Source: Acidobacteriota bacterium | Lineage (GTDB): Bacteria; Acidobacteriota; Blastocatellia; Chloracidobacteriales; Chloracidobacteriaceae | Assembly: GCA_016208495.1 (NCBI GenBank) | Contig: JACQXX010000028.1 | Location: 62,001 to 126,000 of the forward strand | DNA: 64,000 nt | Direction of reading: 5' to 3' | Shown: positions 32,681-60,020 of the stretch, in pieces | Numbering within the stretch: position 1 is the first letter of the stretch | How the letters are laid out: every line of letters begins with the position of its first letter | Program-made: the position numbers and the translations under genes | The notes under the pieces: model-generated | Seen by the model: the letters and a program-made list of their open reading frames with translations, nothing else | Told to the model about the DNA's origin: nothing | Database searches by the model: none

Positions 32681-32759
32681 GGCTGATTCCTTCTCCGTTT
32701 CGAAAAGGTCAAATTCTTCTGGAAAGGGTTGTTGACGGCAATCCGTTTTGATGTCTTGG

Positions 32760-32905: not shown

Positions 32906-32918
32906 TCCCTGATGGGTA

Positions 32919-33473
32919 TCACGTAAACAAATCATCCACCGGTATGGTCCAACCAGGAACAGCGGGTTCAGCTTCGGCGATTTCGCCCCGGCGGTAAATG
33001 GTTGGAGCATCAGGATCAGTTGACCGATAAACCTTGACGATTGATTCACTTAACAGATCAACATCCCAAACGACCACTGTTCCCGCCGCAAAGTAGTCGC
33101 GCCGTTTTTCCGCCATTTGGAGTTCAGCTTCCGGGCCGTAGTCATTTTCACTTCGCACCTCAACCGCAAACACGGGAGCGCCTTCAAGGAATTTCATTCC
33201 AGTCCGCGGGCCGGTGTGAAAGGCGGCGTCCGGGCTAAAGGAAGCGCGGTTTGGGAGGTTGACCCGAAATCCGACGTTGTCCGGGTAGGCAAAGCCGGTG
33301 CCTGATTGGCGTTCATACTGACGCAAACTGGAATAAATATCGCCGGCAGTTCGACCTGGATCTCCACCTGTGGGAGGCATAGACACAATTTCTCCGTTGA
33401 CGAGTTCCGCTTTGGCGTGATTGGGAACCTGTATCAAATCATCAATTGTGGCTTTGTGAGGAAGTGTGAGCAT
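32919..33473 (-). CDS. Uma2 family (DUF820) putative endonuclease
   Basis: A 184-residue protein of the Uma2/DUF820 family, a PD-(D/E)xK nuclease-like fold abundant in cyanobacteria and acidobacteria. Seen: the N-terminal KAELVNGEIVSMPPTGG, the acidic motif FSPDAAFHTG, and EVRSENDYGPEAE followed by EKRRDYFAAGTVVVWDVD, which supply the putative catalytic D, E and K. The length is typical. The cellular role of the family is not established, although many copies lie near mobile or repeat DNA, as here. Confidence 0.9.
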   Translation of the reverse strand: MLTLPHKATIDDLIQVPNHAKAELVNGEIVSMPPTGGDPGRTAGDIYSSLRQYERQSGTGFAYPDNVGFRVNLPNRASFSPDAAFHTGPRTGMKFLEGAPVFAVEVRSENDYGPEAELQMAEKRRDYFAAGTVVVWDVDLLSESIVKVYRSTDPDAPTIYRRGEIAEAEPAVPGWTIPVDDLFT

Positions 33474-38300: not shown

Positions 38301-38439
38301 TGCCAGTGGTTGAGCCGCTTTGGGCTTTCACTGTTGAAATCGGAGTATTCAAGCTGATGGCAACTACACTCAAGAGGCTCAACAAGCCCAAAAAAACAGT
38401 ATTCCGTAATAGATTGTTGGTCGACATAGGTTTTTTCAT
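35395..38439 (-). CDS. Oar-type TonB-dependent receptor
   Basis: A 1014-residue outer-membrane receptor. A signal peptide (about 1-39, ending VKAQ) precedes an N-terminal carboxypeptidase-regulatory beta-sandwich (TGMIVGRVKDIGGAVIAGAP, then LPPGNYEVLVELEGF), a plug region (PINRRNFLDFAVTAPRVTVD, GLDNNDSNVGTVR) and a long C-terminal barrel with alternating aromatic strands, ending FQFGVRLTF with the terminal Phe of outer-membrane proteins. This expanded family is typical of Acidobacteriota and usually thought to import oligosaccharides or peptides. It follows the NRPS by 45 bp on the same strand and might be co-transcribed. Confidence 0.93.
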   Translation of the reverse strand: MKKPMSTNNLLRNTVFLGLLSLLSVVAISLNTPISTVKAQSGSTTGMIVGRVKDIGGAVIAGAPVKARQIETNLERTADADEDGNYQFLQLPPGNYEVLVELEGFAPKKERVLINIGTSALVQMTLVPEGAVETVNVEAAVSFEQGKTESSAINGSDRIDNLPINRRNFLDFAVTAPRVTVDRLPVQGVAATSGLSFNGQSSRQNNVTIDGLDNNDSNVGTVRSTFSQEAVREFQVVSDSYSAEFGRALGGVVNIVTKGGTNDHHGTTFFFVRNDAVSARNAFAEENPPYKQYQFGATVGGPIKKDKLFYFASFERLSVKQNNIITIPENIVQSARRIGFSYVDNGAQPFALGNTSVLARTDMQVNANNLLTLRYNYGGTFDGNFEPVGALTDRSNSGTQRLNDNQFAASNTYINANLNMVNETRFLYSHRSQDVLTDTVSPRVSINSGDVGRIVFGPPIFLNQPRRVNIFQIVDNVSLSRGNHQLKFGVDFLRIMAKNRLPSREQGSITFNDLDLRFIGLPGDGFFSALEAFDPSLRSADQKTFLSALAPLVPLFANSPNFPDNLDLANLPLPTFYAQGFISQKPLEVTQNFFSTFIQDDIKLRDNLMLKLGLRYDRFTTQFLDGNKGDLSPRVALSYNPSKFPKLSLYATYGLFFATPNIGPIFAAFPKGRTTSFQLLPETILTFQRPTRNFPASDQIPENVGFTRQFGLEDEVQQNLQTSYTQQTSLGFNYFLTPKTILNISYNYTRGIRLFGTRDVNPVVRPEPILAQSYLNGRVDTARGAVLYYESAFDSYFHGLSSSINRRFANNFGFQASYTFSKTIDNSSDYVGGVQEIENVFNLRSERGLSLQDVRHRFLFSGSWDLNYTQNKFLKNFSLSTIIALNSGRPFNLQAGADLDSNDVLYDRPQVVGPDGVSRPIGRNVGVSPNFSNVDVRLTRNFSIKERYSVSVIAEVFNLFNRVNIDQFNRIFQRDADGNFNLPPQENGRYTVTRNRYLSSFAPRLFQFGVRLTF

Positions 38440-38483: not shown

Positions 38484-41400
38484 TTACAGGAAGGTTGAGA
38501 GTTGACTGTTGATACCCTCTTGCATTTTTTCAAGGATTTGCATGTATTCTCTGAAAACCTGGATAATTGCTTCTGGCTCGAAATAGGCAATGTCGTAGGT
38601 CGCCCATATCGAAACAGATTGACTTGGTGTGATACTGAGGCTGAGCGGATAATGCCAGACATCATAGCATTCTTCTTCTGCCCATTCCAAATCAGTGGTT
38701 GATGGATTTTTGGCTTCGCCCCGGTAGTAGTTTTGAAAACGGATTACACTTAAACCCTTGAGTGCCTGGATTGAAGGATATTCTGATGGGCAGTCTGCCC
38801 CCCAGGGAAAATGTGGAACTTGCTGTATCTCTAGCAATTGGGTATGAAGCGCCTGAATCCATTCAATCACAAGTTGCTGTTTTGAAAGGTGCGTACATAA
38901 AGGTACTGTATTCATCAGTAGCCCAACAATAAATTCAGCCTTTGGTAGATCAATTGCTCGTCCTGAAACAGTGACTCCAAAAGTTATGAAAGGCTGATCA
39001 TTATGGCGAGCCAAAAGCAAAGCCCAGGCTGCCTGGAAAAGAGTGCTCAACGTTATCTGGGCCGCCCTGGCAACCTGTGAGAGCCTTTGAGTTTGAGTTT
39101 CTGAAATGGTGAAGTGATAACCACTATATTGTTGACCCATTTCACTTTTTGAAAGGGTTTTTCGTGTATAAGGAAGGATCGTAGGCTGCGATACTTGAGA
39201 AAGAACCTGTCTCCAGAAATGTTGAATTGGCTGTAAATCCTGATTTTGATACCACTTCCAAAAAGTATTGTAACTTGGGGAGGTTGGGAGTTGAGGATTT
39301 TTTCCTTGAGATAGGGCTCGATAGACAATTTGAACTTCATTCAAAACGAGAGACACACTCCATCCATCAACCAGTAAGTGAGGTAGTGTCCAAACCAGCC
39401 AGGCTGTGGTTGAGGAAGTTTGAATAAAACTAAGCCTCAAGAGGGGGGCTTCGTCCAAATCAATCCTTCGCTCTCGATCTTGTATCAACCAGGATCGAAA
39501 TTGGGCTCTTTGTTCCTCAAAGGGAAGGTTTGTCCAATCGAGTTCAACCCAATAATCCTGCTGTTTACCCAGAATAAGTTGAAGAGTACCAATTTCATCC
39601 TGGTTGACAAAGACACTTGAAAAAATCGGGTGGCGTTGCAACACGTATTGCCACGCCGTTTTCAGTTTCCCCGTATCAAAGTGGCCTTTCACTTCTATTG
39701 CATTTTGCAACCGGTATACACTTAGGTTGGGAGTCTTTTTGAGGTGTTCCAGCATGGCTTGCTGACCAGCAGTTAGTGGGAACACCGCTTTGGCTGAGTG
39801 ATAGCGTTGGAGCAACCAGGATTGCTGTTCAAAACTGAGTTGGACAAAACTGTTTTCAAAGTGTGGAGATCCCTGACCTGATCCAGATCGAAGTTGATCA
39901 ATGATTGACCGGAGTTTAATCATGAGTAATTGGGTAAGATGATCAACGGTTCCCAGATGATGAACATTGGTGCCATACGCCCAATCAATTTTAAGTTGCT
40001 TATTTTGAATTGCTGCAGAGAAATCAAATAAGTATTTTCTCTGGGCACGGGGACTATGAAATCCTCCATCAATTGACTCTAATTGGTTAAACAATTGAGA
40101 GTTTCCGATTGTCTGATCAATCTGACTCAAGTAATTGTAACTGATTTGTGCCTGGGGGAGTTGTGAAAATTGGACTTGAACCTCTGGATCACTCAAATAT
40201 CGGAGAACCCCAAATCCAATTCCCCGGTTTGGAACTTTGCTCAGGGTGGTTTTCACATGCTGAATGGCGGCATTCATTGTGGTTTGCGGTGCGACCTCAA
40301 TAACAAGTGGATAAATCGAAGTAAACCATCCAACTGTTCGAGACAGGTCAACATTTTGGAAAAGGTCTTCACGGCCATAGCTTTCCAAGTCAATGAAGAC
40401 TGTTTGACTTTGTGTCCATTCAGAAATTGTCAGAATAAGACAGGAAAGAAGTACCTCATTGACAGATACCTGGAAAGTAGGCTGGAGTTGCCGCAGAAGA
40501 CACTCCGTTTCGGACTCGTTCAATGAAACACTAATGTGCGCAACGGAACCTTCGGTATTAATTCCCTGACTATTAACTGGCAAAATGCCAACTGATCCCC
40601 AATTCAGACCAAGCCAGTATGCTTGCTCCTGTTTGAGTGTTTCTGAGTCTGCATAGCTTCGAAGTTGTTTAGCCCAGTGTTGAACTGGTGTTGTTTTCAT
40701 CGGCAACTGGACAGGTAGTTCTTGAAGGATTTGCAAATAGGCAGTCTCCAGGTCTTCCAAAAGAATCCGCCAGGAAATTGCATCCACAACCAAATGATGG
40801 ATGGCAATAAATAATTGGTCGGTTTCAGTTTCCCCAAATGAAAGCTGAATCATCCGGATGAGAGGGCCTTCGGAAAGGTTCAAGCTGGCTTGAGCTTCTC
40901 TGAGAGCTTGATCACATTTTTTCTTTCTTAATTCATTTGGGGCGTCAGAAAAAGCGATATGTATATAAGGAAGATTGTCATCTGGTTGCTGGTATGACTG
41001 AACCCATTGGCCTTCCTCAAAGAAAAACCGGGTGCGCAGGGCATCATGCTGTACAAGCAACCTGAAAAGCGCTTTTTGGAGGATTTCGTCTTTTAATTTA
41101 TCCTTCGTGCTGAGCAGAATTGCCTGATTCCAATGATGTGAATCTTCCAGATTTTGCTCAAAAAACCAGCATTGGATTGGTGTTAGCAAGCCAGAACCTA
41201 AAACGAGACCCTGTTCGCTGGTTGCTATTTGAGGAGTTACACTCCTTTGAGCAAGCTGAGCAATCGTTGGGAATTGAAAGAGTTGTTTTGGAGAGATTTG
41301 AACCCCAGCCTGATTGGCTTTTGAAATTACCTGAATACTCAAAAGCGAATCACCGCCCAAAGCAAAGAAGTTGTCATAAACTCCAACCTGTGTCAGTCCA

Positions 41401-44400
41401 AGTACCTCACACCAAATTCGAGCAAGTGTAGTCTCTGTTAATGTTTGAGGAGCCGTAAATTCGACTTTGCTGGTTACTCCATATTCAGGAGCCGGAAGGA
41501 GTTTGCGATCTACCTTGCCGCTGGTGGTGAGGGGGAAGGTCTCCAGGGTGACAAAGGTCGCTGGAATCATATAGTCCGGCAATCGCTGGCCAAGGTGTTG
41601 ACGCAGGTCAGCCGGGGAAGGAGTTGTTCCAGCCGGGAGCACGTAGGTGACAAGGCGTTTGTCACCGGGACGGTCTTCACGAGCCATCACCACGGCCTGT
41701 CGAATGCCAGGATGGTCTTCCAGTGCGGCTTCAATTTCACCGAGTTCAATCCGAAAGCCACGAATCTTGACCTGATGGTCAAGGCGGCCAAGGTATTCAA
41801 TATTGCCGTCAGGGAGAAACCGGGCAAGGTCACCGGTTCTATACAGGGTTCGGGGTTCAGGGTTCAGGGTTTGGCCTTGAGCCTGGGAAAGTTCCGATGT
41901 TTCCCTGAAGCCTTGCTCCAAACTTTCCTTAGCCTGGCCATCAATTGAATCATGCTCTGTTGCTTCAGAATCTCTGAACCCTGAACCCTGAACCCTGACC
42001 CCTGAGATGAATTTCTCAGCCGTCAGTTCCGGACGATTCCAGTAGCCGCGACCAACCCCGATTCCGCCTATATGCAATTCACCGGGAACTCCAATCGGGG
42101 TTGGCTGGCCGAAGGAGTCGAGAATGAAAATCTGAAGATTGGCAATCGGACGACCAATCGGGACAAAGGGAAGTGGAGAATTGGGTGTGCATTCCCAAAA
42201 GGTGACGTCCACTGCTGCTTCAGTCGGGCCATAGAGGTTGTGGAGTTCGCACAAGAGCCGGTCAAAGAACCGTTGCTGAAGGTCGAGCGAAAGGGCTTCA
42301 CCGCTACAGATGACCCGTTTGATCGAGGTGCAGGTTTCAACCTGTTCTGCCTGGAGAAAGGCCACCAGCATTGACGGAACAAAATGCAGGGTAGTGATGT
42401 GATGCTGGCGGATTACCTCAACCAGATAGGCTGGATCTTTGTGCATCCCAGGTTGGGCGACAACCAGTTGGGCACCAGTCAGAAGTGGCCAGAAGAATTC
42501 CCAGACCGAGACGTCAAAACTGAAGGGTGTTTTTTGAAGGACGCGATCTGCTGGGGTGAGGTGATAGGCATCCTGCATCCAGCAGAGGCGGTTGACGATT
42601 CCCCGATGCTCATTCATTGCACCTTTGGGTTTCCCCGTGGACCCAGAGGTGTAAATGACATAGGCAAGATGGGTTTCAGTTACGGGACTGGCAAGATTGT
42701 GAACTGGAAAGTTGGAAAGTGTGGACCAGTCACGATCAAAACAGAATACCTGAGCGGAAACCGACTGTAACCGATCAAGCAAGGTCGAATGGGTCAGAAC
42801 GACTGGCGCCTGGGCATCTTCAATCACATAGGCGAGGCGATCCTGGGGATATTCGGGGTCAAGCGGGACATAGGCACCACCGGCTTTGAGGATGGCGAGC
42901 AAGCCAACGACCATTTCCAGGGAGCGTTCAACACAGATCCCAACCAGGACATCCGGACCAACGCCCTGGTGCTGCAGGGAATGGGCGAGTTGATTGGCCT
43001 GGGAGTTGAGTTCGTGGTAGGTCAAAGACTGGTCTTCAAAGACAATTGCGATGGCATCTGGGGTGCGTTCAACCTGGGCTTCAATCAACTGGTGCAGGCA
43101 GACATCACGCGGGTAATCAGCCTGGGTGGCATTCCATTCGACCAGCAGTTGGTGGCGTTCAGCTTCAGTCAGGATTGGGAGGTGTCCAACTGGGAGAGTT
43201 GGATTTGAAACGGCCCCAGTCAGGAGGGTTTCATAGTAGCTGAAGAACCGGTCAATGGTTGATTGGTCAAAGAGATCGGAATTGAATTCAAAGGTGATAG
43301 CCAGTCCCTGGGGAGATTCCTCGACGTCACAGGTCAGATCAAATTTGGCAATCCGGGTTTCACTTTCCACCAGTTCAAGCTGCAGGTCGCCAAAATCAAA
43401 CGTGAGGTGGGGTGTGTTCTGCATCACGAACATCACCTGAAACAAAGGCGAACGACTCAAATCCCGTTCGGGATGGAGTTCTTCAACCAGCTTCTCAAAG
43501 GGAACATCCTGATGGGTAAAGGCATCCACCGTGGTTTGGCGAACCTGGGCGAGCAAGTCAAGAAACGTGGGATTGTGGGAAAGGTCAGCGCGCAGAACCA
43601 GGGTGTTGACAAACAGACCAATCAGGTTTTCGGTTTCAAGCTGGTTGCGCCCGGCGATGGGGGTGCCAACGGCAATGTCACTCTGCCCACTCAGCCGATG
43701 GAGCAGGGTCTGGAATCCGGCCAGCAAGACCATAAACAGTGTGGCGTGGTGCTGACGGCTAAGCTGAGTAAGCTGGTCAACCAGTTCCCTGGAATAGAGG
43801 GTCTTCACTCGTGCCCCCCGAAAACTCTGGATTGCTGGTCGGGGTCGGTCGGTGGGGAGGTTGAGTGATTCCAGGCCCGCCAGTTGTTGTTTCCAGTAGT
43901 CAAGCTGAGGTCGCAACCGCTCATCCGTCAGCCAACCGCGTTGCCAGACGGCAAAGTCGGAATATTGAATCGTGAGTGACGGCAAGGGGGATGGCTGGTG
44001 ATGGAGAAAGGCTTGATACAGGGTGTGGAGTTCAGTGAGGAAAACACTCAACGACCAGCCGTCGGCTGCGATGTGATGAATGGTCACCAGGAGAATGTGC
44101 TGGTCTGGCGCCAGGCGCAGCACGGAAAAGCGGATCAACGGGCCTGCCGTGAGGGAGAACGGCTGATGGGCTTCCTGACTGGCAAGGGTCTGGACCTCGG
44201 ATTCCTGGTCAGGTACCGACAGGGAGGAAAGATCAGTGATTGAGAGCTGTTGATCACCAACCGGTGCAATCACTTGCACTGGCTGACCGTCAACCTGAGC
44301 AAAAGTGGTGCGCAGGGCTTCGTGGCGGGAAATGATTTCATTCAGACTCTGGGCCAGGGCCTCAACATCAAGCGGTCCGCTGAGTCGGAGCACGCCCGGC

Positions 44401-47400
44401 ATATTGTACATCGGGCTATCTGGTTCAAGTTGATCCAAAAACCAGAGGCGTTGCTGGGCAAACGACAGCGGCAGGTGCTGATCGCGTAAAACCCGACTGA
44501 TCGGAGGTGAAGCCTGAAAATCTGCCTGAGGATGAGCCACAAGCTGAGAGAAAGCTTCCAGAGTTGGCGCTTCAAACAGGGAACGCACCGGGAGTTCAAT
44601 CTGAAGCACCGTGCGCAACCGGGAAATAACTTGAGTGGCCAGAAGTGAATGTCCTCCCAGTTCAAAGAAATGGCTGTGTAGATAAAGGGGGCTATCCCCC
44701 AGGACCTCCCGCCAGATTCCAGCCAGAATCTCTTCGAATGGGTTCAACATGCGGCTGGTTGGGAGTGATTGGTCTAGTTGGTATCCTTCTGGTGGAGGCA
44801 AAGCACGCTGATCAATTTTCCCATTAGGTGTCAAAGGAAATGAATCGAGGATCACAAAAGCGGCAGGGAGCATATAGGCAGGGAGCCGCTGGCTCAAGTA
44901 CTGACGCAGGTTATTGATCGGAATTTGTGCTTCGGGTGCAAGTAAATAGGCGACAAGGCGTTTGTCGCCTGGGCGATCTTCGCGAACCACAACCAATGCC
45001 TGTTTGATAAATGGATGATTTCCCAAAGCCACTTCAATTTCACCCAATTCGATGCGAAAACCACGCAACTTAACCTGAAAATCAATGCGTCCGAGGAATT
45101 CAATATTTCCGTCAGGAAGATACCGGGTAAGATCGCCAGTGCGATAGAGGCGGGCTGTAGGATCGGATGAAAAAGGGTTTGGAATGAACTTTTCAGCAGT
45201 GAGTTCAGGTCGATTCAAATAGCCACGAGCGAGACCGTCACCGCCAATGCAGAGTTCACCAGGGACGCCGATTGGAACAAGCTGCAAATTACGGTCTAGA
45301 ATATACGCCTGAACATTGGCCATAGGGCGGCCAATTGGAAGTTCTGTCCAGGTTTCCATTTCAGGCGACCAGGCCGGTGGCGCATAGGCAATGCACGTCA
45401 CGGTTGCTTCGGTCGGACCGTAGCCGTTGATCCAGGGTGCACGGCCTTGGCCAAGTTTTTGCCATTGGGCCGATGTGACCGGCGAGGCTTTTTCCCCGCC
45501 AACAAAAGCAATTCGCAGACTGACGGGAAGTGGTGTGTTTGAGGTGACCAGTTCACGTGCCAGTTCGCTAAAGTAGGCCGTCGGTGGGTCAATTACCGTT
45601 ACTCGATGGCGGTCAATAAATTCAATAAATTCAGCGTAAGATGGAACAACTTTGTGGGTTCTAAGCACTACTGTGGCGCCACAAGTCAAGGCTGAAAATA
45701 TCTCTTCGGCAGCCGTGTCGAAATTGAGTGAAGCAAATTGCAAGAAACGGTCGCTGGCACTCAGTTTCAGCAGGTGCTGAACTGCGGAACACAAATTGAC
45801 GATGTTTTGATGAGTGATCAACACCCCTTTGGGCAGTCCGGTTGAGCCTGAAGTGTAGATGACATAGGCCAGATTCTCGGGTTCCGGGTTCTGGGTTCCG
45901 GGTTCCGGGTGCTTGAAGGTTGAAGATTCAAATGTGTTGATGTTCACAATCTCTGACTGGTGGGCAGGTAAAAAAGCTTCGGATTTATTGTCGGTCACAA
46001 TCACCGGAAACTGGGCATCCTGAATCATAAAGATCAGGCGTTCTTGCGGATAGGTTGGGTCAAGTGGAACATAGGCGCCACCAGCTTTGAGGATTGCCAG
46101 TAATCCGATGACCATTTCCAAGGAGCGTTCGACACAGATCCCAACCAGGACATCTGGACCAACGCCCTGGTGCTGCAGGGAATGGGCAAGTTGGGTGGCC
46201 TGGAAATTGAGTTCACCGTAGGTCAGGGACTGGTCTTCAAAGACAACCGCAATTGCATCTGGGGTTCGTTCAATTTGGGCTTCAATCAACTGGTGCAGGC
46301 ACACGTCACGCGGGTAATCAGCCTGAGTGGCATTCCATTTTTCCAATAGGTCAAGTTCATTTTGTGACACAAGTTGCAACTGATCAATTAAGCAGGTTGG
46401 TGCCTTGAGTGAAGAATCAAGCAATGTCTGATAATTGAGGGCCATCCGTTCAATTGTCGTTTTTTCAAACAAATCGGTATTAAATTCCAAAGAAAGGATG
46501 AATCTTTCTTGAGTTTCAACGACGGCCAGTGACAGGTCAAACTGCGCGATTCGTTCCTCAACCGGATACGGGGCAATTTGTAATCCACCAAAATCAACTG
46601 GTGGCTGGTCTTTCCCCGAGATCAGGGCTGAAAGATGATGTAAGCCCTGTTCTGGCAAGCGATCAAAGACAAAAGAACATTGAAAAAGTGGTGATCGGCT
46701 TGGGTCACGGACCGGGTTTAATTGTTCAACGAGGAGCGGGAATGGATAATTTTGATGGTCCAATGCCTCAAACACTGTTTGCTGAACCTGTCGCAAAAAT
46801 GTCAGAAAATCAGGATTCCCGCCACAATTGGCCCTCAATACCACTGGGTTGACAAAATAGCCAACACAGCGATTGAACTGAGTTGAAGTCCGACCGGCAA
46901 ATGGACTCCCAACCCAAATATCATCTTCTTGGGTGTACCGATGGAGTAAAATGTAGAAGGTAGTAAGAAGCACTACAAAAGGCGTGGTTTTCGCTTCAAG
47001 AGTAAAGTGTTTAAGCCGTTCAGATAAGCCTTTGTTGACGACAGTTTCAATCTTTGTACCCTGGTAGGTTTGTATCTGAGGACGAGGTTTATCAGTTAAC
47101 AGATTAAGTAATGGTGCATCTCCGGCAAGTTGTGTTTTCCAGTAATGCCAATCATTTTTGCCAGATTCGGAGTGTAACCACTGTTCCTGCCATTGCACAA
47201 AACCGGCATAAGTAGATTGAATTTCTGGTAATTGTACTTGAATGTTAGTCATCTCCGCTTTGTATAGTTGGCGTAGCTCATCAAGTAGAATAGTCAACGA
47301 CCAGAAATCAATTACAATGTGGTGCAGAACAGTCAACAGCACGTAGTCCAACTTTGAACAACGCCACAAACTCACTCTGAGGATTGGGCCTTGAGAGAGG

Positions 47401-47810
47401 TCAAACGGGCGATAAGCTTCTGACTTCAGGTCTGAATCAATAATTTCTTTGGCCCAGTTGGTGGCGTCGATTTCTACAAAAGAGACATTCAAATGTGGGT
47501 GGACGATCTGAATTGGTATTCCATTTTGAACACCAAACGTTGATCGCAACACTGGGTGGCGATCAATCAATTTTTGAAATGATTGACGGAGAGCTGTAGA
47601 GTTAACTGGAGAGGTAATACGTAGCGATGAAATGACGTGATAGGCACTGCTTTCTGGGGTTAGTTGGTGCAGAAACCACAAAGCACGTTGACCGTGTGAG
47701 AGGGAGTGGCTTTCCGGGCGAGGCTGATTTTTGATCTCAAGAAGTTTTTTTAAAAGTGCACGTCTTTGCTCTGTGGTCAGATTGGAAATATCTGGGAGAT
47801 CACTGCCCAT
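38484..47810 (-). CDS. Nonribosomal peptide synthetase, C-A-T-C-A-T-E-C
   Basis: A 3108-residue dimodular NRPS. The N-terminal docking-like helix (LTTEQRRALLKKLLEIK) precedes C1 (HHIVIDFWS near 163), A1 (about 500-1000, YTSGSTGLPKG near 650), T1 (LGGHSLL near 1052), C2 (HHIAADGWS near 1248), A2 (about 1565-2100), T2 (LGGDSLL near 2150), an epimerisation domain (HHLVVDAISW near 2340) and a terminal C domain (PHLLVDGWS near 2810; the first His is Pro, the catalytic His is kept). By hand alignment with GrsA, A2 reads about DVWFISLVDK, 7 of 10 positions as in the Ser code DVWHLSLIDK; A1 reads about DTEDFGGVTK, substrate not assigned. No thioesterase or reductase follows. Both A domains contain in-frame heptad repeats. 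It overlaps the PKS gene by 11 bp. Confidence 0.95.
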   Translation of the reverse strand: MGSDLPDISNLTTEQRRALLKKLLEIKNQPRPESHSLSHGQRALWFLHQLTPESSAYHVISSLRITSPVNSTALRQSFQKLIDRHPVLRSTFGVQNGIPIQIVHPHLNVSFVEIDATNWAKEIIDSDLKSEAYRPFDLSQGPILRVSLWRCSKLDYVLLTVLHHIVIDFWSLTILLDELRQLYKAEMTNIQVQLPEIQSTYAGFVQWQEQWLHSESGKNDWHYWKTQLAGDAPLLNLLTDKPRPQIQTYQGTKIETVVNKGLSERLKHFTLEAKTTPFVVLLTTFYILLHRYTQEDDIWVGSPFAGRTSTQFNRCVGYFVNPVVLRANCGGNPDFLTFLRQVQQTVFEALDHQNYPFPLLVEQLNPVRDPSRSPLFQCSFVFDRLPEQGLHHLSALISGKDQPPVDFGGLQIAPYPVEERIAQFDLSLAVVETQERFILSLEFNTDLFEKTTIERMALNYQTLLDSSLKAPTCLIDQLQLVSQNELDLLEKWNATQADYPRDVCLHQLIEAQIERTPDAIAVVFEDQSLTYGELNFQATQLAHSLQHQGVGPDVLVGICVERSLEMVIGLLAILKAGGAYVPLDPTYPQERLIFMIQDAQFPVIVTDNKSEAFLPAHQSEIVNINTFESSTFKHPEPGTQNPEPENLAYVIYTSGSTGLPKGVLITHQNIVNLCSAVQHLLKLSASDRFLQFASLNFDTAAEEIFSALTCGATVVLRTHKVVPSYAEFIEFIDRHRVTVIDPPTAYFSELARELVTSNTPLPVSLRIAFVGGEKASPVTSAQWQKLGQGRAPWINGYGPTEATVTCIAYAPPAWSPEMETWTELPIGRPMANVQAYILDRNLQLVPIGVPGELCIGGDGLARGYLNRPELTAEKFIPNPFSSDPTARLYRTGDLTRYLPDGNIEFLGRIDFQVKLRGFRIELGEIEVALGNHPFIKQALVVVREDRPGDKRLVAYLLAPEAQIPINNLRQYLSQRLPAYMLPAAFVILDSFPLTPNGKIDQRALPPPEGYQLDQSLPTSRMLNPFEEILAGIWREVLGDSPLYLHSHFFELGGHSLLATQVISRLRTVLQIELPVRSLFEAPTLEAFSQLVAHPQADFQASPPISRVLRDQHLPLSFAQQRLWFLDQLEPDSPMYNMPGVLRLSGPLDVEALAQSLNEIISRHEALRTTFAQVDGQPVQVIAPVGDQQLSITDLSSLSVPDQESEVQTLASQEAHQPFSLTAGPLIRFSVLRLAPDQHILLVTIHHIAADGWSLSVFLTELHTLYQAFLHHQPSPLPSLTIQYSDFAVWQRGWLTDERLRPQLDYWKQQLAGLESLNLPTDRPRPAIQSFRGARVKTLYSRELVDQLTQLSRQHHATLFMVLLAGFQTLLHRLSGQSDIAVGTPIAGRNQLETENLIGLFVNTLVLRADLSHNPTFLDLLAQVRQTTVDAFTHQDVPFEKLVEELHPERDLSRSPLFQVMFVMQNTPHLTFDFGDLQLELVESETRIAKFDLTCDVEESPQGLAITFEFNSDLFDQSTIDRFFSYYETLLTGAVSNPTLPVGHLPILTEAERHQLLVEWNATQADYPRDVCLHQLIEAQVERTPDAIAIVFEDQSLTYHELNSQANQLAHSLQHQGVGPDVLVGICVERSLEMVVGLLAILKAGGAYVPLDPEYPQDRLAYVIEDAQAPVVLTHSTLLDRLQSVSAQVFCFDRDWSTLSNFPVHNLASPVTETHLAYVIYTSGSTGKPKGAMNEHRGIVNRLCWMQDAYHLTPADRVLQKTPFSFDVSVWEFFWPLLTGAQLVVAQPGMHKDPAYLVEVIRQHHITTLHFVPSMLVAFLQAEQVETCTSIKRVICSGEALSLDLQQRFFDRLLCELHNLYGPTEAAVDVTFWECTPNSPLPFVPIGRPIANLQIFILDSFGQPTPIGVPGELHIGGIGVGRGYWNRPELTAEKFISGVRVQGSGFRDSEATEHDSIDGQAKESLEQGFRETSELSQAQGQTLNPEPRTLYRTGDLARFLPDGNIEYLGRLDHQVKIRGFRIELGEIEAALEDHPGIRQAVVMAREDRPGDKRLVTYVLPAGTTPSPADLRQHLGQRLPDYMIPATFVTLETFPLTTSGKVDRKLLPAPEYGVTSKVEFTAPQTLTETTLARIWCEVLGLTQVGVYDNFFALGGDSLLSIQVISKANQAGVQISPKQLFQFPTIAQLAQRSVTPQIATSEQGLVLGSGLLTPIQCWFFEQNLEDSHHWNQAILLSTKDKLKDEILQKALFRLLVQHDALRTRFFFEEGQWVQSYQQPDDNLPYIHIAFSDAPNELRKKKCDQALREAQASLNLSEGPLIRMIQLSFGETETDQLFIAIHHLVVDAISWRILLEDLETAYLQILQELPVQLPMKTTPVQHWAKQLRSYADSETLKQEQAYWLGLNWGSVGILPVNSQGINTEGSVAHISVSLNESETECLLRQLQPTFQVSVNEVLLSCLILTISEWTQSQTVFIDLESYGREDLFQNVDLSRTVGWFTSIYPLVIEVAPQTTMNAAIQHVKTTLSKVPNRGIGFGVLRYLSDPEVQVQFSQLPQAQISYNYLSQIDQTIGNSQLFNQLESIDGGFHSPRAQRKYLFDFSAAIQNKQLKIDWAYGTNVHHLGTVDHLTQLLMIKLRSIIDQLRSGSGQGSPHFENSFVQLSFEQQSWLLQRYHSAKAVFPLTAGQQAMLEHLKKTPNLSVYRLQNAIEVKGHFDTGKLKTAWQYVLQRHPIFSSVFVNQDEIGTLQLILGKQQDYWVELDWTNLPFEEQRAQFRSWLIQDRERRIDLDEAPLLRLSFIQTSSTTAWLVWTLPHLLVDGWSVSLVLNEVQIVYRALSQGKNPQLPTSPSYNTFWKWYQNQDLQPIQHFWRQVLSQVSQPTILPYTRKTLSKSEMGQQYSGYHFTISETQTQRLSQVARAAQITLSTLFQAAWALLLARHNDQPFITFGVTVSGRAIDLPKAEFIVGLLMNTVPLCTHLSKQQLVIEWIQALHTQLLEIQQVPHFPWGADCPSEYPSIQALKGLSVIRFQNYYRGEAKNPSTTDLEWAEEECYDVWHYPLSLSITPSQSVSIWATYDIAYFEPEAIIQVFREYMQILEKMQEGINSQLSTFL
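41844..42005. repeat. Heptad-bracketed element inside the NRPS A2 domain
   Basis: GGGTTCG/GGGTTCA units (41844-41871) and the inverted CCCTGAA array (41972-42005) enclose a core of about 100 bp. The element is read in frame, adding about 50 residues (GVRVQGSGF ... TLNPEPRT, residues about 1936-1989) between ELTAEKFIS and LYRTGDLAR, where A1 has only about 11 residues. Confidence 0.88.
45878..45918. repeat. GGGTTCC heptad array inside the NRPS A1 domain
   Basis: Four to five units of GGGTTCC/GGGTTCT in the coding sequence, read on the minus strand as HPEPGTQNPEPE just before NLAYVIYTSGSTG. The corresponding site in A2 (before ETHLAYVIYTSG) has no repeat. Confidence 0.85.
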
Positions 47811-50800
47811 GCGATGATCCTCCGCTGGTAAGCATTTGTTGTAAAAGGGCTTTAACTTGTTCGTCAGAAAGTTGATCTACTTTATCTAACAAATCATCCG
47901 TGGTTCCACGTGGAGATTGGCTGTGATTTAACGGTACTGGCGGCGAAACAGGTGGTTCTAAGGATATTGCCGTTATCTTCACGGTTGCTGGAGCCGGAGT
48001 TGCTGACAATGATTGATGTAGCGTTGTGGTCAGTGTGTTCAGTGATGCCTCTTGAAGAAATGAAGCTACTGGGAGCACGGCGCCCAAATCACTTTCAATC
48101 TGGCTGCGAAGTGTAACTGCCATCAAGGAGTCAAATCCAAGCGACATCAGCGAAGTAAACTGCTCAACCCGTGAGGGTTTAATTCCTAGAGTCTGTGCGA
48201 CTGCGGTTTGGAGATATTCTTCCAGCAGTTGCCTTCGATCATCAAGGGGCATTGTAAAATAAGTTTCCCGTTTCAAACCCAGGCGGACTGTTGTCTGGCT
48301 GGGAGGTGGGGCCGGTTGGTTGGTTGGTTCAGTAATGTAATTAAGCAGTGGAGAGGTCATCAGGGACGGGAAAAGCTGTTTCAGTTGCCCCCAATCAAAT
48401 CGAGCTCCAATCAAAGTCGGAACCTGGGAATCCAGGTTATAGTGGAGGATTTGCAATCCCGTAGCAGGTGACAGAAGGTTAATTCCTGAGGCTGGGTTTT
48501 TGCCGGCTGCTGTGTTCCGGGCTGCCATTCCAACCTCTGCCCACGGCCCCCAATTGATGGTACTGGCCTTGTATCCATTTTGACGTAACCAGTGAACAAT
48601 CGCATCTTGAAAGGTATTGCCAGCAGCATAATTGGCTTGCCCGGGTGAGCCCAGGACTGATGCCAGCGAACTAAAGTTAACAAAGAAGTCCAGTTCCTCT
48701 GGGGAAAATGCATTGGCCAGATGCCATGTGCCAAGGATCTTAACCCTTGTGACAGACAACAATGCTTCCCGGTTCAAATTGTAGAGTGATTGATCTTCAA
48801 GCACACCAGCAGCATGAATCACGCCTCGAATTGGCGGCCAGCCTTCATCGGCATAGGTTTGAAGAAACTGTCCGAGTTGTTCAGCACTTGAAACATCAAG
48901 CGCGATTGTTTGAACATTGACTCCTAAAGCTTCAAGATCACGGATGGCTGCAATTTGTTGTTTTTGGAGAGAATCCTCTGGGTACGCTTTCCATTCATTT
49001 CGGGCTGGAAGAGGCGTCCGACTGGTCAAAATCAGGCGCCGGGCACCCTGTTGCGCCATCCACTGAGCCACAATCAATCCAAGTCCGCCAAGTCCCCCTG
49101 TGATGAGATAGCTTGCATTGGTTCGCCAGACCAGCGACGGGTGAAGGGTGAGGTTCTGTGTGACCTTAACGAGCCGAAGCCCATAGATGCCATCTTTTCG
49201 AAAAGCAAGCTGATCCTCACCCATCAAGTTGAGGATGGCTGTTCGTGTAGAGTGAACGGACTCCTCAGTCGTGAAGTGGGTGTCTAGATCAAACATCCCT
49301 CCCCAGTACTGAGGCATTTCACGAGACAAGGTGCGCCCAAATCCCCAAACTGGTGACTGGAGTAATCCATCTAAAGTTGGATCATTGGATACATTTTGGA
49401 CCCCCTGAGTCCCAATCCAAAAAAGAGGTGGGGTTATAAATTGCTGGGCAAATACTTCCTGTAACGTGAAGAGGATGCCTGTGCAGGTGACATCGACAGT
49501 TGTTTCAAAAGTTGAATCGGCGAATTGTTCAATGGTAGGTGCATTAAGTGGCCATAAGTACAACACACGGCTGGGAATAGCTCCGGTTTGATGAAGCCAA
49601 TCGAACAATTGCCGAAATTGATCTCGACTGGCTGGGTTAAGTCGAACCTGGTTGGAATCACTGATCTCAAAATCAGATCCTGGATGCACCACAAAGCATG
49701 TGGCTCCACTGGCAGTTAATGATTGTGCCAAGCTGTCGCCGATTCCAGAGAGATCACTAAAAATAAGCCAGTTCCCAGTTGATTCCGCAGTTGTGCTTGA
49801 TACCTCAATTTGTTTCCAAATAAGTTGGTGAAGCCAGCCGTCCAGTGAGTCTGAAGGTGTTTCTTTGATAGAAGGAATCAATGGCTTTGAATTCAACTCT
49901 TGATTCCATTGGACATCAATCCAGCACCGTTCACGTTGCCACGGATAGCTGGGCAGTTTTATTCGGTGACCAGATGTTCCATAGAGTCCTGACCAGTTAA
50001 CATTGCATCCTTTTGCATAAAGAGTTGCTAGGCTAGAGCACAAACTCAAAAACCCATTTTCACCTCGTCTTAAGGAAGAAAGAATCACAGTATCAAGTTT
50101 TTGAGATTGGAAGCATTCGCGAATGGCTGGGCTTAACACTGCATGCGGCCCCAGTTCCAGAAAAACCTCATATTTTTCCGGTGCCATGGTTTCGATGGCC
50201 TGGGTAAAGCACACTGGTTCGCGCAAATTCCGTCCCCAATAGGCTGGTGAAAAGTCGCCGAAGGTAGGAGGTTTGCCAGTTACCGTTGAAAAAATTGGTA
50301 TCGCTGCATTGTGTGGGGTCAGGCCATAAAGCGTTCCAGCCAGTTCGTGTTGCAGAAAGTCAAGTTGTGGGCTGTGGAACGCATAGTTTTGGGTAATTAC
50401 CCGGGCAAAGATGCCGCGCGACTGCAGGTGTTCGACAAGGGCTTCAACCGATTTGGGATCGCCAGAAACAGTAAGTGATGTTGGACTGTTTTCAGCGGCT
50501 ACTGACAGGGTTGGGAACAGCTTGAGCAGTTCCTGAAATTCGGTTTCTGAAATGGCCGCCGCTGCGGTTTTTCCTTTTCCAGCCGCCTTTTCCATAATCC
50601 GACCACGATGGAAAATCACATGGAGCGCATCCTGGAGTGTCAGGACTCCGGCCACGTGGGCCGCCGCAACTTCGCCCATGCTATGTCCGACAACCGCATC
50701 CGGGACAATCCCAACCTGTTTCCAAAATGCGGCCAGCGCAACTTGAAGGCTAAAGATCGTCGGCTGGGCAATATCAGTTCGACTGAGTCTCGAATGGGCC

Positions 50801-53800
50801 GCATGGGCCTGCAACTCCTCAAACACCGACCAGCCACCATACCCTTGCAGGTATTCGTCACATTGTTTGAGCACCTTACGGAATGGGGTGCTGGCATCAA
50901 TCAAATCCACGCCCATTCCGGCCCATTGATTTCCCTGACCGGAAAAAACAAAGGCTACCTTTGGCGTTTGGCCTGGAATTTTACGCCCAACGGCCAGCCC
51001 ATACGTGGTTTCACCCGCCAGAAACACCCCCAGTTTTTCAATCAGCTGGTCACGCGATGAACCAACCACGGCCAGCCGATATTCATAATGATCACGCCGG
51101 AAACTGGCTGTCCGGCAAAAGTCATAGAGATTGAGATTGGGCTGAGCAACCAGATGCGCCTGGAATCGTTCGGCCAGGAGAGTCAGTGCTTCTGGTGTAC
51201 GGGCTGAAATTGGAAGCAGGTACGCTGTTTGGGGGCGAGATTCTGCCTGGTTTTGGAAGTTTGAAATCGGCGGAATTCCTTCGAGGACAGCATGGGCGTT
51301 GGTACCACCAAAGCCAAATGAATTAACCCCAGCTAGCATTGGCCCGTCAGTTCGTGGCCAGGGTGATAATTGTGTTTGAACATAAAGTGGCAGGCGAGAA
51401 AAAGGAATGTAAGGATTCGGGTTGTCAAAATGTAGGCTGGGTGGGATGGTTCGATTTTTTAATGCCAGTGCTACTTTGATCAATCCAGCAATCCCCGCTG
51501 CTGGCTCAAGATGACCAATATTGGTTTTTACCGAGCCAATGGCGCATTTGCTGCCAGGTCCCCGATCTTGTGAAAGTACTTTGCCCAGCGCTTTAACCTC
51601 AATTGGATCTCCAAGCGATGTTCCAGTACCATGGGCTTCAATATACTGCACCTGACTTGGGGAAATCATGGCACGAGCGTAAGCTTCTTGTAATACAGCT
51701 TCCTGGGCATGCTGGCTGGGTGCTGTCAGTCCGTTACTTCGCCCATCCTGGTTAACTGCGCTCCCTCGAATAACTGCATAAATGGAGTCATTATCGGTTA
51801 AGGCTTTAGAAAGAGGTTTCAAGACTACAAGCCCAGCTCCTTCACCGCGTACATACCCATTTGCACGAGCGTCAAAGGTCCAACAGTGACCGTCAGGCGA
51901 AAGGAAACTGGAGGCGATCAGATTTTCCGTGACTTCATGAGAGAGTAATAAGTTGACACCCCCAGCGAGCGCCAGGACAGATTCACCCTGGCGGAGGCTT
52001 TGACAAGCCTGGTGGATTGCAACTAATGATGAGGAGCATGCTGTATCGATTGAGATGCTTGGACCGAGAAAATTGAAAACGTAGGAAATCCGATTGGAGA
52101 CAATTGATAGAGAACTCCCTACTGCCGTATACGGTGTTCGGCAATGAGGCGAACTAACTTGAATACGCCCATAATCTCCGACTCCCAATCCAACAAATAC
52201 TCCGACTTTGCTCCCACTTAAACGTTGGGGCGCAAGTCCGGCATCGTCGAGCGCTTCCCAGGTGACTTCGAGCAGCAGCCGTTGTTGCGGATCCATATGC
52301 TCGGCTTCGCGGCGGGAAATCCCAAAAAACCCGTAGTCAAACAGGTCAATGTCATCCAGAAAGCTGCCCCAGTAGGTCTTGCTCGGATCGGTCGGGTAAA
52401 AACCGCTCTTTCCTCGGCGTTCCGCTGGGACTTCGCGGATCATATCTACGCCGTCGCACAGCAGTTGCCAGAACGCTTCGGGGCTGTTCGCACCTGGAAA
52501 ACGACAGCCGATGCCGATGATGGCAATTGGTTCTTCGGCTTTGTTCTGCCCGGCAAAGAAGTGCGAAATCAATTCGATTGAATCCTGTCCTCCGGCGAGA
52601 TGCCGCGAGAGGGCATAAATTGAAGGATAGGTATAAAACAGCGTCGGCGAGAGTTTGCGTCCCAGCCATTGCTCAAAGTCTCCGGTCAGGCTGACGACAT
52701 CCCTCGATGCAAGACCAAACCGCGAAAACTCATCGTGGACGTTGATTCGGGTGGCGGGGATCCGGGCATAGCGCGCCAGTTGATCAATCAACCAGACCTG
52801 AATTTCCTCCGCGTTCGGAGTTTTTTTGAGTGGCGTCAACACCGGGCTGGACGAATCTTCGTTCAGCCCAAGCGATGGCGTTTCAGTTGGCAGAAACTCA
52901 AGCATCCGGTTTTGAAAAGCCTGCCGACAGGCTTGCCGCTGGATTTTCCCGCTTGATGTTTTAAGAATCGTGCCCGGTTTGATCAAATCAATCGTGTAGA
53001 CGTGAACATCGTGAAATTCGGCCACCGCTTGCCGAATCGCCGCCTGGATGGTGCGCACATCGGCGGCACTCGGGTCTTTAAGTTCGGCTGAGGGTTTGCG
53101 TTCGCCGCCGCGAGCACGTTCGCGGCGTTCAATTTCAGCCACCACCACCAGATGTTCGCCATCGGCGGAGTCAACCGAAAACGCAGCCGTACAGCCGGGA
53201 CGAATTGCCGGATGGCTCTGTTCGACGGTCAATTCAATGTCATGTGGGTACAGATTTCGACCATCAATGATGATCATGTCCTTGAGGCGTCCGGCGATGA
53301 AGAGCACCCCGTCACGCATAAACCCAAGGTCACCAGTTCGCAGGAAAGGTCCTTCGCCGGTATCGGCCAGATAGGCGCCGAAGGTGTGTTCGGTTTCTTC
53401 TTCACGTCGCCAGTATCCAACCGCCACGCCGGGGCCGGAGACCCAAATTTCCCCAACTTCATCGGTTGCGCAGGCGGTCAGCGAATCGGGATTCACAATC
53501 ACCACCCGAACACCGGATGGCTCAACGGTCGGTCGTCCACAACCTGCCAGTACCCGAACGTTGTCCTGACGGGAGGGAGGGACTTCGATAACTTTGTGTT
53601 GTTCAAGTGCTTGGGCATCCACCGTGCAAAAGACCGGCTCGTCTTCGCGCCGGGTGGCTGATACTTTCAGCGTGGCTTCGGCCAGGCCAAACCCTGGGGA
53701 GAACGTTTTCCAGCGAAAGCCGCAGCCTTCAAACGCTTTGGTAAAGCGTTCCATCGTCTCGCGGCGAACGGGTTCGGCGGCATTGAGTGCGGCTTTCCAG

Positions 53801-54684
53801 CAACTCAGATCAAGTGCGGCGCGCTGTTCGGGGGAAATTTTGCGAACACAGAGGTCAAAGGCAAAGTTCGGGCCGGCGCTGTACGAAGCACGATATTTTG
53901 AAATAGCCTGCAGCCAGCGCAAGGGGCGTTGCAAAAACGCCACTGGCGACATCAGCACTGACTGATATCCGGTGTAAATTGGCTGGATAATGCCGTCCAT
54001 CAATCCCAAATCATGAAAATTGGGCATCCAGGTGACGGTGACCGTGTCTGGGGTATGTTCCCATCCGTCACGGTAATAGGCCGCATTGCAGAGCATATTT
54101 CGATGCGTGACCATCACCCCTTTGGGAATCGAGGTTGAACCGGAGGTGTATTGCAGAAAGGCGAGTGAATCAGGGGTAATATCTGGGGGCTGCCAGGTTT
54201 CGGCGGCGGCATCTGGAATCTCATCGGTGACGATCCACTCCATGCGGGCCAGGTCAGGGGCCTGATCAAAGAGCATCTCCGCCATGGAATACACCTGACG
54301 GGTGGTCATCACAAATTTAGCTTTGGCATCAGCCGCAATGGCCTGTAGACGGGGAAGGGTTCGATTGACTCGTTGCGGATGTGGTGGATAGGCCGGCACC
54401 CCAATCACTCCACCATACAGACATCCAAAAAACGCGGTGGCAAAGTCGAGGCTGGCTGGATAGAGCAGGAGCGCTGATTCGCCTGCGGCCTGTTTTTGTT
54501 GCAAGGTAGCGGCAATCGCCCGCGCTCGTCGGTCAACTTCGGTAAAGGTCAACTGGGCGGCTTCGACTTCGCCATCCGCCAGGTAAAGATAGACTCGTTT
54601 ATCAGCGAACTCAGTCGCCCGCCGGGTGAGCAATTCAACCACGGTAGAAGGCTCAACTGGAGGCTCAGTAACAAGATTGGTCAT
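47800..54684 (-). CDS. FAAL-PKS hybrid: fatty acyl-AMP ligase-ACP-KS-AT-KR-ACP
   Basis: A 2294-residue loading and extension enzyme. Residues 1-595 are a fatty acyl-AMP ligase (YTSGSTSIPKGVMVTH near 180; FAAL features GPNFAFDLC and GRLKDMIIIDGRNLYPHDIE). ACP1 has its Ser in FGLASRD (near 660). The KS (about 715-1140) has intact DTACSSS, EAHGTGT and KTNIGHLE. The AT (about 1245-1540) has GHSMGE and YAFH, the Phe favouring malonyl-CoA. The KR has GGLGGLG near 1862, SS and QANYAAGN near 2015; its LED motif resembles the LDD of B-type KRs. There is no DH or ER. ACP2 has GFDSL near 2185. A C-terminal docking-like tail (LDKVDQLSDEQVKALLQQML) fits the NRPS N-terminus. Expected intermediate: a 3-hydroxy fatty acyl thioester two carbons longer than the starter. 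Confidence 0.96.
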   Translation of the reverse strand: MTNLVTEPPVEPSTVVELLTRRATEFADKRVYLYLADGEVEAAQLTFTEVDRRARAIAATLQQKQAAGESALLLYPASLDFATAFFGCLYGGVIGVPAYPPHPQRVNRTLPRLQAIAADAKAKFVMTTRQVYSMAEMLFDQAPDLARMEWIVTDEIPDAAAETWQPPDITPDSLAFLQYTSGSTSIPKGVMVTHRNMLCNAAYYRDGWEHTPDTVTVTWMPNFHDLGLMDGIIQPIYTGYQSVLMSPVAFLQRPLRWLQAISKYRASYSAGPNFAFDLCVRKISPEQRAALDLSCWKAALNAAEPVRRETMERFTKAFEGCGFRWKTFSPGFGLAEATLKVSATRREDEPVFCTVDAQALEQHKVIEVPPSRQDNVRVLAGCGRPTVEPSGVRVVIVNPDSLTACATDEVGEIWVSGPGVAVGYWRREEETEHTFGAYLADTGEGPFLRTGDLGFMRDGVLFIAGRLKDMIIIDGRNLYPHDIELTVEQSHPAIRPGCTAAFSVDSADGEHLVVVAEIERRERARGGERKPSAELKDPSAADVRTIQAAIRQAVAEFHDVHVYTIDLIKPGTILKTSSGKIQRQACRQAFQNRMLEFLPTETPSLGLNEDSSSPVLTPLKKTPNAEEIQVWLIDQLARYARIPATRINVHDEFSRFGLASRDVVSLTGDFEQWLGRKLSPTLFYTYPSIYALSRHLAGGQDSIELISHFFAGQNKAEEPIAIIGIGCRFPGANSPEAFWQLLCDGVDMIREVPAERRGKSGFYPTDPSKTYWGSFLDDIDLFDYGFFGISRREAEHMDPQQRLLLEVTWEALDDAGLAPQRLSGSKVGVFVGLGVGDYGRIQVSSPHCRTPYTAVGSSLSIVSNRISYVFNFLGPSISIDTACSSSLVAIHQACQSLRQGESVLALAGGVNLLLSHEVTENLIASSFLSPDGHCWTFDARANGYVRGEGAGLVVLKPLSKALTDNDSIYAVIRGSAVNQDGRSNGLTAPSQHAQEAVLQEAYARAMISPSQVQYIEAHGTGTSLGDPIEVKALGKVLSQDRGPGSKCAIGSVKTNIGHLEPAAGIAGLIKVALALKNRTIPPSLHFDNPNPYIPFSRLPLYVQTQLSPWPRTDGPMLAGVNSFGFGGTNAHAVLEGIPPISNFQNQAESRPQTAYLLPISARTPEALTLLAERFQAHLVAQPNLNLYDFCRTASFRRDHYEYRLAVVGSSRDQLIEKLGVFLAGETTYGLAVGRKIPGQTPKVAFVFSGQGNQWAGMGVDLIDASTPFRKVLKQCDEYLQGYGGWSVFEELQAHAAHSRLSRTDIAQPTIFSLQVALAAFWKQVGIVPDAVVGHSMGEVAAAHVAGVLTLQDALHVIFHRGRIMEKAAGKGKTAAAAISETEFQELLKLFPTLSVAAENSPTSLTVSGDPKSVEALVEHLQSRGIFARVITQNYAFHSPQLDFLQHELAGTLYGLTPHNAAIPIFSTVTGKPPTFGDFSPAYWGRNLREPVCFTQAIETMAPEKYEVFLELGPHAVLSPAIRECFQSQKLDTVILSSLRRGENGFLSLCSSLATLYAKGCNVNWSGLYGTSGHRIKLPSYPWQRERCWIDVQWNQELNSKPLIPSIKETPSDSLDGWLHQLIWKQIEVSSTTAESTGNWLIFSDLSGIGDSLAQSLTASGATCFVVHPGSDFEISDSNQVRLNPASRDQFRQLFDWLHQTGAIPSRVLYLWPLNAPTIEQFADSTFETTVDVTCTGILFTLQEVFAQQFITPPLFWIGTQGVQNVSNDPTLDGLLQSPVWGFGRTLSREMPQYWGGMFDLDTHFTTEESVHSTRTAILNLMGEDQLAFRKDGIYGLRLVKVTQNLTLHPSLVWRTNASYLITGGLGGLGLIVAQWMAQQGARRLILTSRTPLPARNEWKAYPEDSLQKQQIAAIRDLEALGVNVQTIALDVSSAEQLGQFLQTYADEGWPPIRGVIHAAGVLEDQSLYNLNREALLSVTRVKILGTWHLANAFSPEELDFFVNFSSLASVLGSPGQANYAAGNTFQDAIVHWLRQNGYKASTINWGPWAEVGMAARNTAAGKNPASGINLLSPATGLQILHYNLDSQVPTLIGARFDWGQLKQLFPSLMTSPLLNYITEPTNQPAPPPSQTTVRLGLKRETYFTMPLDDRRQLLEEYLQTAVAQTLGIKPSRVEQFTSLMSLGFDSLMAVTLRSQIESDLGAVLPVASFLQEASLNTLTTTLHQSLSATPAPATVKITAISLEPPVSPPVPLNHSQSPRGTTDDLLDKVDQLSDEQVKALLQQMLTSGGSSHGQ

Positions 54685-56778: not shown

Positions 56779-56927
56779 AGAACTTTTCGGATATGGTCGA
56801 GAGTTCCGCCTTGTGGCGGGGAGTTATAGAAATTATGGAAGATAATTGCCTTCGGTGAAGAAGCTGTCTGAAGCCAGAACTCTGAACTTTTCCTGAAATC
56901 CGATGCCGCGCGTTTCCACGCTTGAGT

Positions 56928-58136: not shown

Positions 58137-58142
58137 GCAGTG

Positions 58143-59924: not shown

Positions 59925-60020
59925 GAAATCACCACAACTCAAAAAGAATATAAGTCTGCTCCGCGTCTCAAGCGCGGTTTTGCTTCGTTTTTTGGAAAAC
60001 CAGCCAGATGCCCTGACCAC

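Follow-up and report, generated by a model that had tools for sequence, protein, structure and literature searches.

Peptide release by a terminal condensation (C) domain is already known from glidonin, ftChyA and IvoA. In the glidonin synthetase of Schlegelella brevitalea, which ends in C13-A*-T13-TE, the terminal C domain C13 joins the carrier-bound lipopeptide to a free amine, putrescine; the second His of its motif matters, and the A*-T portion behind it may be needed for folding (available sections of PMC10587159). The terminal domain (CT) of ftChyA, a fungal two-module NRPS, releases a dipeptide onto free anthranilate (available sections of PMC9622831), whereas that of IvoA uses water and frees a D-amino acid; Fda1 is a proposal of the same kind (available sections of PMC11546977 and PMC12751119).

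The locus described here adds a conserved, rare assembly line for a lipodipeptide that lacks a thioesterase (TE) and carries a remodelled, DCL-like terminal domain (Ct). Like glidonin synthetase, it has a terminal C domain at the end of a lipopeptide line. However, C13 is followed by a partial A domain, a T domain and a TE, whereas the gene studied here stops at Ct, which stands after an E domain; an E domain before C13 is not mentioned in the sections of PMC10587159 at hand. The E-C end and the position of the terminal C domain in the DCL clade are shared with IvoA (PMC12751119, PMC11546977, as far as their available text goes), but IvoA is a single fungal module and the present line a bacterial FAAL-PKS-NRPS with an N-acylated dipeptide. 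With ftChyA the line would share transfer of a dipeptide by a terminal C domain to an amine that is not bound to the line, but ftChyA is fungal and without a lipid front, and the accessible part of PMC9622831 notes no E domain. The aeruginosin system, where release is reductive (available part of PMC3765200), and the FAAL lipopeptides of PMC4598715, which have no matching end in the portion available, were set aside as parallels. No published description of this cluster came up in the literature searches, which covered C domains at the ends of lines, NRPSs of Acidobacteriota and specificity codes.

The window, the whole stretch of 64,000 bases that was analysed, comprises bases 62001-126000 of contig 28 of an acidobacterial genome (G000; 8.38 Mb, 177 contigs). 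Its relevant features are given below, with amino acid identities to counterparts in G259, which belongs to a different family of the same order, and in G051, a genome of the same family.

33644..35149, minus strand: MFS exporter, 501 aa; 41% over 487 columns to G259
35395..38439, minus strand: Oar-like TonB-dependent receptor, 1014 aa; 65% over 976 columns to G259, 49% to a homologue in the G051 locus
38484..47810, minus strand: NRPS C-A-T-C-A-T-E-C, 3108 aa (ORF, Pfam, local HMMs); 36% over 3133 columns to G259
38487..39785, minus strand: terminal C domain Ct, DCL-like (local HMM, context, tree, model); the gene stops at the domain end
38604..38657, minus strand: strands of the Ct C-lobe that hold W402 and W419
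39360..39383, minus strand: Ct motif PHLLVDGW (alignment; P160, H161 and D165 in the numbering of a 458-aa fragment)
39891..41195, minus strand: E domain, HHLVVDAISW (local HMMs)
41217..41450, minus strand: T2 (carrier search, local HMM)
41481..43130, minus strand: A2, code DVWHISLVDK (by eye), with an in-frame heptanucleotide-repeat insert
43143..44480, minus strand: C2, HHIAADG (local HMM, motif by eye)
44511..44744, minus strand: T1 (carrier search, local HMM)
44781..46331, minus strand: A1, code DTEDFGGVTK (by eye), Arg/Lys-like by comparison with ApnA
46344..47714, minus strand: C1, HHIVIDF (local HMM, motif by eye)
47800..54684, minus strand: FAAL-ACP-KS-AT-KR-ACP protein, 2294 aa (ORF, Pfam); 42% over 2330 columns to G259
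48025..48219, minus strand: second ACP (Pfam, carrier-domain search)
48535..49116, minus strand: KR catalytic domain (Pfam)
50044..50952, minus strand: AT domain, GHSMGE (Pfam)
51424..52533, minus strand: KS domain (Pfam)
52597..52794, minus strand: first ACP (Pfam, carrier-domain search)
52897..54627, minus strand: FAAL domain (fatty acyl-AMP ligase type; Pfam AMP-binding, DIP2-like C-part); 57% to the G259 FAAL
55156..60020, minus strand: upstream genes for a TPR protein, a Ser/Thr kinase and a kinase-FGE protein, also present before the syntenic G051 NRPS locus
41847-41984, 45879-45900, 20394-20408, 32144-32179 and 62736-62959: GAACCCN-type repeats, also found in stretches L032-L037 and L052-L054 of the genome

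The original prediction of an FAAL-ACP-KS-AT-KR-ACP protein followed by a C-A-T-C-A-T-E-C protein is borne out. Pfam matches in the upstream protein comprise an FAAL-type AMP-binding domain with DIP2-like C-part, PP-binding, KS, AT, KR and a second PP-binding domain, and those in the downstream protein comprise four Condensation-family stretches, two AMP-binding and two PP-binding domains, whose order was resolved by local HMMs. The two genes overlap by 11 bp, as had been stated, and both frames are intact. By eye, the translations retain the motifs of the KS (DTACSSS), the AT (GHSMGE), the KR (Ser/Tyr), both ACP serines and both T serines, E (HHLVVDAISW) and C2 (HHIAADG); C1 reads HHIVIDF and the last C domain PHLLVDG. 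Among the solved structures closest to the FAAL domain are FadD32 and FadD23, both of which are named as fatty-acid--AMP ligases. An FAAL fused before an ACP and a PKS module, and downstream NRPS modules with C, A and T domains and their motifs, mark the locus as an FAAL-primed PKS-NRPS lipopeptide line. An assembly artefact or pseudogene is ruled out by the orthologue in G259, by the two open genes and by a window free of N.

No TE, reductase or further NRPS gene follows at the locus, and the next genes, on the same strand, are the predicted TonB receptor and MFS exporter, which belong to the conserved set and are more than adjacent genes. Docking-like tails are present as claimed, but LSxEExxALL-like sequences of a similar kind are also found at the ends of other NRPS proteins, so the tails do not show exclusive pairing; after Ct, neither the window NRPS nor that of G259 has a docking tail. 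A siderophore system would call for iron-binding residues (hydroxamate, catechol or beta-hydroxy-Asp) and tailoring genes; no hydroxylase was found among the genes scanned beside the line. Genes for a kinase-FGE-sulfatase-like protein, a TPR protein and a Ser/Thr kinase precede an NRPS locus both here and in a second member of the family (window 55156-60020; G051:C72:202075-206921) and are possible regulators of these loci; they are absent beside the G259 cluster. Between the exporter gene and an ABC1-kinase gene, the window (32357-33473) also contains overlapping ORFs with a Uma2-family and a nucleotidyltransferase domain, the latter weakly MntA/HalB-like.

In a class-wide search, the best non-self match to the FAAL domain (57% identity) lies on contig C6 of G259, in a cluster (G259:C6:64464-85238) of identical architecture with the same terminal C domain and neither A-T nor TE behind it. 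The cluster encodes a PKS protein (2220 aa), an overlapping NRPS (2988 aa) with the same eight domains by local HMMs, a receptor (988 aa), an MFS protein (496 aa) and a phosphopantetheinyl transferase (PPTase; 229 aa). The same layout and end in G259 indicate that the end is conserved and no assembly break. Among the proteins compared, the receptor is the best conserved, and identities of the NRPS domains range from 49% (T2) down to 30% for the last C domain, which is the least conserved of the eight. Beyond the last cluster gene, 284 bases of the G259 contig remain, so more genes may follow there. On the other side of the cluster, an IstB-like ATPase gene of the insertion-sequence type (L085:7621-8442) stops 22 bp before the PKS gene, which hints at mobility.

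The architecture occurs in 2 of 162 genomes of the class, so the domain order described earlier as uncommon is indeed rare in this sample. When the Ct sequence and a two-row profile were searched against these 162 genomes and a draw of 396 genomes from the phylum, only G000 and G259 scored as a pair (913 and 851 bits against at most 291 for the next), values that are high by construction with both copies in the profile. A scan of named genomes gave one weak relative, in Methylobacter marinus, which has an ordinary E-C-A-T order. Among plasmid records, 558 had a match, all below 60% identity, and the best 40 of these 558 reached 27-33%.

Ct lies after the E domain, and its class was assessed from context and phylogeny. 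In a context table of 53 rows (52 DCL-type and one other C domain), from which fragments of up to 380 residues and duplicates had been removed, an A domain follows 48 of the 52 DCL-type domains; the others are the two Ct, the split module G008:C127, with A-T at the start of the following gene, and a C domain of G386 that stands alone. The last of these (G386:C47; L139:9254-10765) is a DCL-type C protein with the motif THLVVDA, encoded between two NRPS genes. In a quick tree of 64 rows, which omits rows L022, L028, L029 and L031 of the context table, the Ct pair falls among the DCL domains and is separated from the 13 LCL and 3 E domains included, as it also is when either copy is left out. The phylogenetic check that had been proposed, carried out here with DCL, LCL and E domains, places Ct with DCL, on a long-branched join with 91 SH-aLRT that is not starred; the pairing of the two Ct (95 SH-aLRT) could be helped by their long branches.

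Among solved structures, PvdL matches Ct best by sequence. The AlphaFold2 model of Ct is a confident C fold (pLDDT 87.1, pTM 0.87) that 357 of 997 compared chains match at Z >=8; its fold matches include structures of PvdL-E2-C3-A3. The motif reads PHLLVDGW in the window and PHLLMDGW in G259. In an alignment that took in 29 of the 50 other DCL rows, HH is present in 28 of 29; both Ct have Pro in place of the first His, which leaves the HHxxxDG motif typical of DCL domains incomplete, but retain the catalytic second His (H161), D165, G166 and W167. Moreover, P160, R374, C398, W402 and W419 are common to both Ct and occur in none of the 29. Among 161 columns conserved in the 29 domains, the consensus residue is replaced at 70 in the window copy, at 77 in that of G259 and at 49 in both. 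A glycopeptide X domain, which has HRxxxDD in place of HHxxxDG (available sections of PMC11546977), was rejected on the motif PHLLVDG. On this evidence, Ct is best described as a DCL-like domain with a predicted intact fold.

Counted from the motif His, the key residues of the glidonin domain are +242, +244 and +263 (numbering of PMC10587159, available sections). In C2 of the window, these offsets lead to two C-lobe strands that were matched by eye with the Ct strands of W402 and W419. This comparison of spacing between domains whose offsets vary gives a hint at most, and the acidic residues named for glidonin are not obviously present.

The ten-residue codes of the A domains were read by eye at the usual anchor positions, with the Ser and Gln consensus codes as references. 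For A2 (DVWHISLVDK), the best solved relative is Txo2, and the code is Ser-like by comparison with the consensus. For A1 (DTEDFGGVTK), it is ApnA A1; LgrA was set aside in both cases, as its bits may sum over two A domains. The codes in G259 are DAWQFGLIDK and then DVEDTGAITK and differ from those of the window, so the G259 peptide should differ as well. In Planktothrix, Arg corresponds to the ApnA code DVEDIGAIEK and Arg/Lys to DVEDIGGVEK (available part of PMC5311044), and A1 is predicted to be Arg/Lys-like. The likely product of the window line is a 3-hydroxyacyl-(Arg/Lys)-D-Ser with a C-terminal cap or a free acid.

The core of A1 (window 45202-46167) shares 83% DNA identity over 969 bp with the last A domain of the NRPS on contig C118 of the same genome, and the two codes are identical, which points to an exchange of the specificity-determining part between two lines. 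Heptanucleotide repeats of the GAACCCN type are dispersed over the stretches of this genome that were read, NRPS coding sequence included; in A2, an inverted pair flanks some 100 bp and keeps the frame, whereas A1 has a short run. The same pattern found none in L038 and L051.

Every other C, A or T domain found in whole-genome searches of G000 sits on other contigs. Of the 19 carrier matches, 4 belong to this line, 9 to three other NRPSs, 2 to two AMP-ligase-T-acyltransferase proteins, 1 to a small ACP and 3 to a frame of 2936 codons. The 6203-aa protein of C118 ends in E and the 2271-aa protein of C61 starts with a DCL C domain, so the two fit each other, and the candidates for a third NRPS gene fall away: C118 pairs with C61, the line on C91 has its own TE, and the proteins of C33 and C82 are AMP-ligase-T-acyltransferase fusions. 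Two of four thioesterase-family matches pass the cut-off, one in the C91 line and one in a stand-alone gene on C130 that adjoins a PPTase and could act in trans on this line. G259 has six PP-binding matches: this line accounts for four, a frame of 95 codons whose size indicates a fatty-acid-type ACP for one, and a reductase-AMP-ligase-T-acyltransferase lipid protein for the last; the genome-wide carrier search found no other NRPS-type carrier, and no TE exceeded the Pfam cut-off (PF00975; a single sub-threshold match, 19.6 bits). The line therefore appears not to depend on a TE in G259, and hand-over to another NRPS is unlikely there.

The other lines of G000 have features of their own. The second line is spread over two contigs (G000:C118:47876-66487 and C61, L035:6692-13507), with five modules and a short tail after E on C118, a dimodule on C61, and a TE on neither. 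The 2963-aa NRPS of C91 (L034:6170-15061) has a glycosyltransferase family 4 region fused before C-A-T-C-A-T-TE, and its gene is preceded by one for a family 2 glycosyltransferase. A Cas6-like gene (L051:6587-7624) adjoins the AMP-ligase-T-acyltransferase fusion on C82.

The syntenic locus of G051 (contig C72) appears to have a complete, conventional end. There, TPR (54%), kinase (73%) and kinase-FGE (57%) genes precede an A-T-C-A-T-E-C-A-T NRPS that is collinear with the window NRPS over A-T-C-A-T-E-C (39% over 2686 columns). By contrast with the window, the locus has no FAAL-PKS, and its corresponding C domain precedes an A-T pair. The next protein is a C-A-T whose C-terminal part looks like a TE, judged by eye and from its alignment to the C91 protein, which extends across the TE region at 39%; behind it lies the TonB receptor, and no MFS homologue occurs in the G051 stretch that was read. 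In the simplest story, the window line would have gained the FAAL-PKS front and lost the A-T and TE parts, and its last C domain would have turned to release, a direction that we infer from this comparison.

Taken together, the assembly line for a lipodipeptide is probably complete, and its last C domain probably releases the product onto a small soluble nucleophile. Release of a 3-hydroxyacyl-dipeptide by this domain, as originally predicted, is thus partly supported and the best-supported reading, because G259 keeps the same end without another NRPS-type carrier or a TE over the cut-off. In the steps that we infer, the FAAL would load a fatty acid onto the first ACP, the PKS module would add one malonate unit (the AT is presumably malonyl-specific) and reduce it to a 3-hydroxyacyl chain, and the NRPS would add the Arg/Lys-like and then the Ser-like residue, which the E domain would turn to the D form. 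Ct would take the D-configured dipeptidyl thioester on T2 for attack by the nucleophile, using H161; the MFS protein would export the product, and the TonB receptor may take it, or a complex of it, back up. By analogy, the acceptor is more likely an amine than water, given the bacterial precedent of glidonin and the release by ftChyA onto free anthranilate, whereas IvoA and the proposed Fda1, with terminal C domains of the DCL branch that free acids, stand on the side of water. Catalysis by Ct has against it the 49 of 161 columns at which both copies leave the consensus, the loss of the first His and their mutual identity of 30%.

The water case, in which Ct would be a hydrolase that releases the free acid 3-hydroxyacyl-X-D-Ser, is possible but doubtful: the E-C order is that of IvoA, whose terminal C domain also falls in the DCL clade (available sections of PMC12751119 and PMC11546977), and the two bulky Trp on C-lobe strands common to both Ct would narrow the acceptor channel to water, but the bacterial terminal C domains named in the available text of the glidonin paper add amines (PMC10587159). 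It is unlikely that Ct is what a lost module left behind, as a docking or vestigial piece, with the chain freed by a trans thioesterase or by spontaneous hydrolysis. The A-T behind the matching C domain of G051 and the subsequent C-A-T protein with its TE-like part, the rank of Ct as the fastest-changing domain of the NRPS and the stand-alone TE of G000 would all fit such a remnant, yet Ct is of full length and, although its copies in the two families are only 30% identical, both retain the catalytic H, D and G and share derived residues; moreover, no TE of G259 exceeds the cut-off. Attack by the fatty 3-hydroxyl or a side chain within Ct, which would give a small or dimeric lactone as in fungal cyclising C domains, is improbable: the KR should leave the 3-hydroxyl, but a 10-membered ring or a dimer would be required, the domain is of the DCL-like kind, and the two genomes do not share their residue codes.

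An acceptor supplied by a third NRPS protein encoded elsewhere, as a trans A-T, is the least probable of these alternatives. Split modules such as that of G008:C127 do occur, but G000 has no stand-alone amino-acid A-T protein in whole-genome A and carrier searches, its other NRPSs begin with C or a glycosyltransferase region, and neither in the gene nor elsewhere in that genome does an amino-acid A-T follow this last C domain. The earlier suggestion that the chain is passed to a protein encoded elsewhere is therefore unlikely, given also the carrier inventory of G259, and the third NRPS gene with a matching docking domain that had been named as decisive against release by Ct was not found in G000, in keeping with an end that lacks a docking tail. 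The search for trans-acting proteins that had been proposed thus yielded no A-T in G000, a candidate TE in G000 and no TE above the Pfam cut-off in G259.

Returning to release by Ct, it is tempting, though tentative, to regard Ct as the founder of a separate DCL-derived release class, marked by PHxxxDGW and the two shared C-lobe Trp, which would have replaced an older A-T and thioesterase end and couple a lipodipeptide ending in a D residue to a specific small acceptor, a conjugate that the co-conserved TonB receptor would recognise. The mode of release decides the product, and the usual expectation is a thioesterase. The compact set of five genes (PKS, NRPS, receptor, exporter and, in G259, PPTase) with its remodelled C domain would offer a clean test case for the conversion of a C domain to release. 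Little was found in the literature on the NRPSs of Acidobacteriota, and Ct may be a tool for peptide capping. If the acceptor is found, the TonB receptor would provide a direct handle on the function of the product.
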